Below, one piece after another: positions 61,927 through 64,000 of a DNA stretch of 64,000 nt. The notes under the pieces are model-generated. The model saw nothing but the letters and a program-made list of their open reading frames with translations. It searched no databases and was not told where the DNA came from. The number at the start of each line of letters is the position of its first letter. Within the stretch, counting starts at the first letter, position 1. The DNA comes from Candidatus Sericytochromatia bacterium (lineage in GTDB: Bacteria > Cyanobacteriota > Sericytochromatia > S15B-MN24 > JAQBPE01), in NCBI GenBank assembly GCA_035285325.1, contig JAYKJB010000095.1, positions 1-64,000 on the forward strand. The letters run 5' to 3'. A program made the translations under genes and the position numbers.

Positions 61927-62334
61927 TCACAAGGGCATATCCGAATAGGCGTCGGCCGGGCGCGCGGCGCGTTGCTCGCGCGGATGGCGGGCCTCCCGGG
62001 CCGCGCGGGCTTCCATCTTGCGGAAGTAACGCTCGATCGCCAGGTAGGCACCGAACAGCCCGCCCGCCATGGCCAGCAGGGCCAGGTCCCCGATCGCGGT
62101 GGCGACCCCGGGCGACACCCAGCGCAGGTGCGCGAAGACCTCGATGCCGGTGCGCACCGTCAGACCGGCCGCCGCCACGAGGAAGGCATCCACCACGCGG
62201 GCGAGCGTGCCCCGTCCGAGCGCCCACTTCACGCGGTCCGAGATGTACAGGCCCACACTGAAGGCGGAAAAGCTGAAAAAGAAGGTAACGAGATTGATGA
62301 AGGTCGCAACGTGCGACCAGAGACCCTGGCTCAT
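61927..62334 (-). CDS. Small membrane protein at the head of the lar operon
   Basis: A 135-residue protein with three hydrophobic segments (VATFINLVTFFFSFSAFSVGL, ARVVDAFLVAAAGLTVRTGIEV, ATAIGDLALLAMAGGLFGAYLAI) and a basic, disordered tail (RKMEARAAREARHPREQRAARP). I do not recognise a family. ATG at 62334 follows GGAG by eight bases. It is first in the operon with larE, larB and larC and overlaps or abuts larE. A nickel or metal uptake role would fit the context but is not supported by motifs. Confidence 0.6.
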   Translation of the reverse strand: MSQGLWSHVATFINLVTFFFSFSAFSVGLYISDRVKWALGRGTLARVVDAFLVAAAGLTVRTGIEVFAHLRWVSPGVATAIGDLALLAMAGGLFGAYLAIERYFRKMEARAAREARHPREQRAARPADAYSDMPL

Positions 62335-62554: not shown

Positions 62555-63013
62555 CTACGGCTTCGGCAGCGGCACCGGCGGCAGCGGGTTGGGCGGCAGC
62601 GAGGGCTGGGGGAAAGGGTTCGGCATCAACACCCCGATGCGATGCTCGGCCAGTTCGCCCTTCTGGCTGCGCAGGTTGCAGCGCACTTCGTAGAGGTTCA
62701 TTCCACGCGGGAAATTCACCTTGATGGTGGAAGCGTTGGCCGCCCCGATCATGCGGGCATCGGTCTTCCAGCGGATCTGCTCGATGTGCGCGCCTTCCAC
62801 CGTGAAGGTCCAGGTGTCGTTCTCGCGGGCGCTCATGTAATCCCAAGCGGGCTCACCGTTCACCAGCACGCGGGTGGCCCAGGCAGCCTGGGCGGCGGGC
62901 TTGGCCTGCGCCCGGAGCCCGGCGGGTTTCGGGCCGGTCGAGGGGGTCTGGGCGCGGCCACAGGCGGCCAGCGTCAGGGTGGCGGCCAGGCCAAGCAAAA
63001 CGATACGGGTCAC
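62555..63013 (-). CDS. Small lipoprotein of unknown function
   Basis: A 152-residue lipoprotein with lipobox LAAC (Cys18), a beta-rich middle (WTFTVEGAHIEQIRWKTDARM, STIKVNFPRGMNLYEVRCNLRS) and a proline-rich C-terminus (NPFPQPSLPPNPLPPVPLP). No family is recognised. GTG at 63013 is ten bases from GGAG; the GTG nine bases earlier abuts it. An 11-bp-phased TTAA pair lies upstream at 63095. Confidence 0.65.
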   Translation of the reverse strand: MTRIVLLGLAATLTLAACGRAQTPSTGPKPAGLRAQAKPAAQAAWATRVLVNGEPAWDYMSARENDTWTFTVEGAHIEQIRWKTDARMIGAANASTIKVNFPRGMNLYEVRCNLRSQKGELAEHRIGVLMPNPFPQPSLPPNPLPPVPLPKP

Positions 63014-63094
63014 GGGGGGCACTCTCCAGACAGTCTTGAAACGAACGCGGCGCTGTCGTCATCGTAACAAATCATCATGTGTCTTTCATCTTTG

Positions 63095-63267: not shown

Positions 63268-63732
63268 CTAGGGGGCCTGTGACGAGACCCTTCGGAGGCC
63301 CACGATGCGCAGGCGCAGGTGGCCCTGCAGTGACTGCGCGAGCGCCGCCCCCAGCACCACCTGCACCTCAGCGGGCATCCAGGCGTAAAGCTGATCCGTC
63401 AGCTGGGAGACCTCGAACAGCGTCAGGTCGGGGCCGCCCAGCACCTCGATCACCGCGCCGTCGACCTCGCGCAACCAGGGCGCGAAGGCCCAGCTCTGAC
63501 CGCAAAGTTCCTCGTCCTCGAAGACCCGCACGTTGAGCAGGCTGGCGGGCAAATCCTCGATCAGGCCGCTCACGTCGTCCATTTCCAGGTCGATCAGCTG
63601 ACCTGGCCGGCGCACCCCCTGCGCGATGAAGGCCGCGGCCTGGCCGACCTCATCGTCCCGGCTCGACGCCCCTGAAGTCGCGCTCAGGGCGCTTTCGATC
63701 GCCAGGATGAGTTGCTCCGGCGCGACGTTCAC
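63268..63732 (-). CDS. GTPase-less FtsZ C-terminal-domain protein
   Basis: A 154-residue protein that matches FtsZ from its T7 loop onward. RRPGQLIDLEMDDVSGLIED parallels the FtsZ T7 region, and DGAVIEVLGGPDLTLFEVSQLTDQL with VQVVLGAALAQSLQGHLRLRIVGL follows the FtsZ_C sheet. The whole GTP-binding half is absent: the first 30 residues are a short helix, not the Rossmann domain. GTG at 63732 follows GGGAGGG by six bases and overlaps the upstream stop (GTGA). It is translated together with an ABC ATPase. A regulator or cap of FtsZ polymers is the obvious guess. Confidence 0.7.
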   Translation of the reverse strand: MNVAPEQLILAIESALSATSGASSRDDEVGQAAAFIAQGVRRPGQLIDLEMDDVSGLIEDLPASLLNVRVFEDEELCGQSWAFAPWLREVDGAVIEVLGGPDLTLFEVSQLTDQLYAWMPAEVQVVLGAALAQSLQGHLRLRIVGLRRVSSQAP

Positions 63733-64000
63733 GGCGACCCTCCCGGTGGCGCCAGCCGCCCCGCGCCGTCCGCCACCAGCTGGCCATCCACCAGCTCGAT
63801 GACCCGGTCGGCGGCCTCGGCCAGTTCGGGATTGTGCGTCACCAGCACGATCGTCTGACCGTGCTGCTGGTTCTGCTCGCGCAACCACTCGTAGACCTTA
63901 TGGCTGTTGCCCGTGTCCAGGTTGCCGGTCGGTTCGTCGCCGAGCAGCAGCAGCGGGCGATTGGCCAGCGCCCGGGCGATCGCCACGCGCTGCTGCTGGC
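63729..64000 (-). CDS. ABC transporter ATP-binding protein (LolD/MacB type), partial
   Basis: The C-terminal 90 residues of an ABC ATPase whose 5' part lies beyond the window. QQQRVAIARAL is the end of the signature motif, followed by Walker B LLLLGDEPTGNLD, and THNPELAEAADRVIELVDGQLV carries the H-loop. DEPTGNLD and the short helical region are those of LolD, MacB and FtsE. Its TGA overlaps the GTG of the FtsZ-C-like gene. Confidence 0.88.
   Translation of the reverse strand, partial: QQQRVAIARALANRPLLLLGDEPTGNLDTGNSHKVYEWLREQNQQHGQTIVLVTHNPELAEAADRVIELVDGQLVADGAGRLAPPGGSP

Follow-up and report, generated by a model that had tools for sequence, protein, structure and literature searches.

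A diverged FtsZ C-terminal domain with a gene of its own, next to an ABC ATPase gene, in Candidatus Sericytochromatia, and its possible role as an FtsZ decoy

What is a protein that resembles the C-terminal half of FtsZ doing directly behind the gene for an ABC ATPase? The question is raised by a 154-residue reading frame near the end of the window, by which we mean the whole stretch of 64,000 nucleotides that was analysed (positions 1 to 64,000 of contig JAYKJB010000095.1, from a Candidatus Sericytochromatia bacterium). The features on which the argument draws are as follows.

61927..62334, minus strand: small membrane-type ORF that bounds the extra stretch discussed below on its downstream side; start chosen by eye
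62555..63022, minus strand: putative lipoprotein, 155 aa; together with the FtsZ-like gene it fills the stretch missing in the closest relative, G001
63268..63732, minus strand: gene encoding the 154-aa protein with the FtsZ C-terminal domain (the FtsZ piece); GTG start, TAG stop
63301..63468, minus strand: Pfam FtsZ_C match, residues 89-144, from profile searches of the gene and of the whole genome
63403..63438, minus strand: residues 99-110, GGPDLTLFEVSQ, which span the S8-H10 loop and the first part of H10 and form the best-kept block
63553..63609, minus strand: T7 loop and H8, residues 42-60, placed by alignment; the N/D/D of FtsZ are D48/E50/D53
63729..64000, minus strand: 3' part of the gene for a LolD-type ABC ATPase with a total length of 246 aa; the gene runs past the window to contig position 64469

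Chance open frames are common at 70% GC, and the evidence for this gene is therefore its homology rather than the length of its ORF. The frame is a gene, coding-like, and not a chance frame. Its GC content per codon position (0.75/0.43/0.88) is similar to that of the neighbouring genes, which rules out a foreign base composition, and its codon score (0.291 per codon) is the highest among the six frames and exceeds those of 500 of 500 shuffles, the maximum of which was -0.162. The start of the gene overlaps the stop of the ATPase gene by four bases (GTGA).

A single Pfam family, FtsZ_C (PF12327), is matched by the protein (E 1.4e-8; 35.4 bits; curated cut-off, 27), over model positions 35-90 of 95, and a search of the whole genome with this model recovers the same gene (C95:63301-63468). 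The only NCBIfam model to match is TIGR00065, the FtsZ equivalog, at 21.3 bits, short of its cut-off of 295.2. A phmmer search of PDB chains gave 21 distinct sequences at E<=0.1, every one of them FtsZ (best 4e6e, E 4.6e-4), with the best stretch covering residues 7-144. In a MAFFT alignment with the FtsZ proteins of relatives, the FtsZ piece corresponds to the end of S6, H7, T7, H8 and the C-terminal sheet; some residues are absent from the S7-H9 region and identity to FtsZ is 20-28%, indicating strong divergence. No GTP-binding domain (PF00091) was matched in the 154-aa ORF and there is no C-terminal tail peptide, as the protein stops shortly past S10. The T7 motif N-x-D-x-x-D is replaced by DLEMDD, so that E. 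coli N207/D209/D212 become D48/E50/D53, i.e., Asn to Asp and Asp to Glu with the last catalytic Asp kept.

We conclude that the gene product is a diverged FtsZ C-terminal domain that stands alone (end of S6, H7, T7, H8-H10 and S7-S10). It shares with FtsZ this domain, as judged by the HMM score and the matches to PDB sequences, the order H7-T7-H8...S10 and one T7 catalytic Asp; it differs in the T7 Asn and first Asp, in having neither the GTP-binding half nor the tail peptide, in a shortened S7-H9 region and in being encoded directly after an ABC ATPase gene. An earlier note, made from the sequence, had already described an FtsZ C-terminal domain that lacks the GTPase half, the two T7 substitutions with one Asp retained, and a start overlapping the stop of a LolD/MacB/FtsE-type ATPase; all three descriptions hold, LolD being the nearest type, and the FtsZ_C profile search that it proposed gave a score above the cut-off. 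Its alignment by eye, from the T7 loop to the end of the C-terminal sheet, began somewhat too late, since homology is present already from the S6/H6-H7 region and H7.

Structure prediction from the single sequence with AlphaFold2 was poor (mean pLDDT, 36.7), with an order of helices and strands that fits the FtsZ domain by eye. With an input alignment of 21 FtsZ C-terminal sequences taken from viral contigs, the mean pLDDT was 57.7, with values of about 68-78 for residues 91-150. For this guided model, the best 50 Foldseek matches listed were all FtsZ (best E 4.5e-7), and the best match by VIA-align was Bacillus subtilis FtsZ 2vxy (Z 10.8; 4.3 A over 140 residues). As FtsZ rows guided the model, these matches indicate that the predicted fold is compatible with that of the FtsZ C-terminal domain and are not independent support.

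The FtsZ piece is an addition to a normal FtsZ and not part of the main ftsZ gene. The whole 3.83 Mb assembly (98.6% complete) contains one PF00091 match, in a normal full-length FtsZ on contig C132 with the tail DIPDFLRQ. Because this is the sole match, a partner gene encoding the GTPase half is ruled out for the assembly, and the term "split FtsZ", applied earlier, does not fit in its strict sense. A truncated full-length ftsZ at this locus is also ruled out: the upstream region contains no FtsZ-like sequence or GTPase domain, and relatives show no such gene, the closest having nothing at this place.

Additional FtsZ-type genes occur elsewhere in the class. All five examined genomes of one family (G012, G011, G013, G014 and G016; L253-L257) have a second FtsZ-type gene plus a normal FtsZ, and these second genes also stop shortly past the C-terminal domain. 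Among IMG/VR contigs with an FtsZ GTP-loop DNA pattern (L177-L252), 72 of 76 have an FtsZ frame in which the C-terminal domain is matched in full; most of these frames are ~310-320 aa and stop right past this domain, without a tail peptide. Host contamination is a possible source of these tail-less viral-contig sequences.

The residues that the FtsZ piece has kept are unevenly distributed. If positions with at least 80% conservation among 15 FtsZ proteins of the phylum are counted as conserved, the FtsZ piece keeps 12 of 21 conserved residues in T7/H8, the S8-H10 loop and the start of H10, and 11 of 74 elsewhere, a ratio of 3.84 (Fisher p 0.0002) for segments that were picked after seeing the alignment and whose kept motifs also anchor it. 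Ratios for 26 full-length FtsZ controls treated identically (5 second FtsZ copies of a single family in the class and 21 viral-contig FtsZs) were 0.74-1.34. Later H10, left out of this count, has changes at all five conserved positions; when all of H10 and S9 are added, the counts are 13/29 versus 10/66, a ratio of 2.96 (Fisher p 0.0036), with controls at 0.77-1.39. In H7, the helix that normally lies against the GTPase domain absent here, 2 of 14 conserved residues are kept. These counts suggest that FtsZ likeness has been retained preferentially on the polymerisation face. A passage of PMC12747378 places T7/H8 and H10/S9 on the C-terminal polymerisation surface of FtsZ, and a passage of PMC11938149 describes this surface as the plus end and a hot spot for MinC, SulA, MciZ and MipZ, regulators that bind the C-terminal face.

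Our preferred explanation, to which we assign a probability of roughly 0.45, is that the FtsZ piece is an FtsZ-derived decoy: by docking on the GTP face of full-length FtsZ, it would cap or sequester the latter. Within a filament, each subunit inserts its T7 loop into the GTP pocket of its neighbour, according to passages of PMC8456036 and PMC5624674. The FtsZ piece would still offer T7/H8 and the S8-H10 loop, which normally face this pocket, and may dock on the GTP face of a monomer or of the filament end that exposes that face. As it has no GTPase domain and no tail, nothing would stack on it in turn, and the result would be monomer sequestration or filament capping. The change of the T7 Asn and Asp, with one catalytic Asp kept, may slow hydrolysis in the docked subunit and so produce a long-lived cap; it might also abolish docking besides hydrolysis. 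The presence of a normal, tailed FtsZ as a target supports a decoy. This mechanism, binding included, is read from the anatomy of the protein in one genome, and supposes that the gene is expressed, that its product binds FtsZ and inhibits assembly, and that it is co-regulated with the envelope genes.

Searches for relatives place the gene in one genome. A short FtsZ_C gene was found only in the source genome (G000) among 18 genomes of the class and, among the matches listed for 386 genomes of the phylum, a short FtsZ_C frame likewise only there, all the other listed frames being at least 370 aa. No relative was found in a contig scan by short peptides across 84,980 species, a method that detects close relatives only, or in the flanks of 80 ATPase loci from other phyla, among the matches listed. 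FtsZ_C was present in 48 of 50 genomes checked from the 80 behind these loci; two short frames among these 50 (G396, 155 aa, 110 bits; G389, 221 aa, 94 bits) are perhaps broken ordinary FtsZ. Sixteen plasmid records match, those with names being ordinary ftsZ or "cell division protein". The titles, abstract openings and passages of the literature consulted describe no protein consisting of the FtsZ C-terminal domain alone. A phage origin is not supported, as there is no PHROG match and the viral scan was empty; three phage records have weak, unannotated matches to the FtsZ piece (24-25% identity).

The closest relative, G001 of the same family, has the ATPase gene followed by a small membrane-type ORF and by larE-like and larB-like genes (by eye), as in the window; both the FtsZ piece and the lipoprotein are absent from the matching place. 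The extra 1.4 kb is thus lineage-specific, having been either gained here or lost in the G001 lineage. An assembly mis-join at the FtsZ piece is unlikely because the gene order on both sides is the same in this relative. The counterpart of the membrane-type ORF there is 115 aa, directly behind the ATPase gene (matched by eye); in both genomes this ORF adjoins the larE-like and larB-like genes, and the ORF in the window has no Pfam match. For the lipoprotein, the genome encodes a paralogue with 35% identity (G000:C119:8875-9309) and marginal matches in 2 of 17 other genomes of the class.

This restricted distribution would also fit a decaying, functionless relic, i.e., the 3' half of a duplicated or acquired ftsZ that landed behind the ATPase gene. 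Presence in a single genome among those searched, absence from the closest relative, and strong divergence with residues missing in the S7-H9 region all fit such decay. However, the frame is intact with host-like codon use, its start overlaps the ATPase stop precisely, and no trace of the 5' half of ftsZ lies upstream, where the ATPase gene sits. Divergence is also uneven, sparing one face, which is unexpected under free decay, and we consider a relic to be rather unlikely.

The genes on the other side of the ATPase bear on a second alternative. Past the window, the gene order is an LCP (LytR-CpsA-Psr) gene with a domain match of 59.1 bits, the 246-aa ATPase gene and the FtsZ piece; a tRNA-Asn lies upstream of the LCP gene, on the other strand, near the contig end at 66290. 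A permease gene, which the earlier note had expected past the window edge, is absent from the operon, the other neighbour of the ATPase gene being the LCP-family gene. The LCP-ATPase pair is present in six of nine other examined genomes of the order (G001, G002, G004, G005, G006 and G007; the LCP match in G004 is partial), and the LCP-ATPase stretches of these six contain no match to the FtsZ piece. As the pair is conserved without it, the coupling of the FtsZ piece to the ATPase is local to this lineage. Across the order, the LCP gene and a LolD-type ATPase gene without a permease form a conserved envelope unit (L004:3730-5765; L073, L074, L075, L076, L067 and L058).

It is conceivable that the FtsZ piece is an FtsZ-derived adaptor of this unit, for instance in envelope polymer transfer or lipoprotein handling tied to the division ring, and does not inhibit FtsZ. 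LCP proteins act on wall-linked polymers, the pair is conserved, and the three genes follow one another with overlapping ends. However, the presence of the pair without the FtsZ piece in six other genomes indicates that the unit functions without it, and overlap alone suggests co-translation rather than contact; hence, we regard an adaptor as unlikely.

Nine FtsX-domain matches are found elsewhere in the genome and, in the flanking stretches examined, an ATPase match is present on C90, C132, C11 and C108 and absent on C16 and C4; the ATPase at our locus could be served by an unlinked permease. An FtsEX-like system, in which the ATPase and the FtsZ piece jointly control division, as the earlier note's comparison to FtsEX had implied, is very improbable: although the FtsE model gives the ATPase a score of 204.5 bits, the ATPase is nearer LolD (264.9 bits; both below the model cut-offs), its neighbour is an LCP gene and not an FtsX-type permease, the pair is conserved without the FtsZ piece, and C132 carries a distinct FtsX-domain permease gene together with an ATPase gene.

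An FtsZ-derived decoy can be compared with known regulators. The proposed outcome is the same as that described in passages on SulA, MciZ and the MinC N-domain, in that a polymerisation face is occupied and FtsZ stacking blocked (PMC11938149, PMC8456036). These regulators bind the C-terminal face of FtsZ, whereas the FtsZ piece is such a face and its predicted binding site is the opposite one, on the GTP side. To our knowledge, SulA, MciZ and MinC are not derived from FtsZ. ARC3, in chloroplast division, is a diverged FtsZ derivative recruited as a negative regulator of FtsZ; it keeps the N-terminal FtsZ region, and so the opposite region to that retained here, and has MORN repeats. FtsZl1 and FtsZl2 are also diverged members of the FtsZ superfamily; as described in a passage of PMC2875224, both keep the nucleotide-binding half and FtsZl1 has no recognisable FtsZ C-terminal domain, which is the opposite truncation. 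The target side would be shared with CbtA, an Escherichia coli toxin of a toxin-antitoxin system, for which a passage of PMC5624674 indicates the GTP-domain end of FtsZ.

A more specific proposal would be a decoy made of the C-terminal face only, a mirror image of SulA, MciZ and MinC that acts from the GTP side by capping or sequestering FtsZ and is co-translated with the LCP-ABC ATPase operon, whose activity would thereby hold division in check; we consider this fuller version doubtful. In summary, the FtsZ piece is encoded by a real, unusual, single-genome gene, the function of which can be tested. If the decoy reading is true, truncation can turn FtsZ against itself, and the FtsZ piece would provide a ready tool to cap FtsZ from the GTP side and a direct test of which filament end controls treadmilling.
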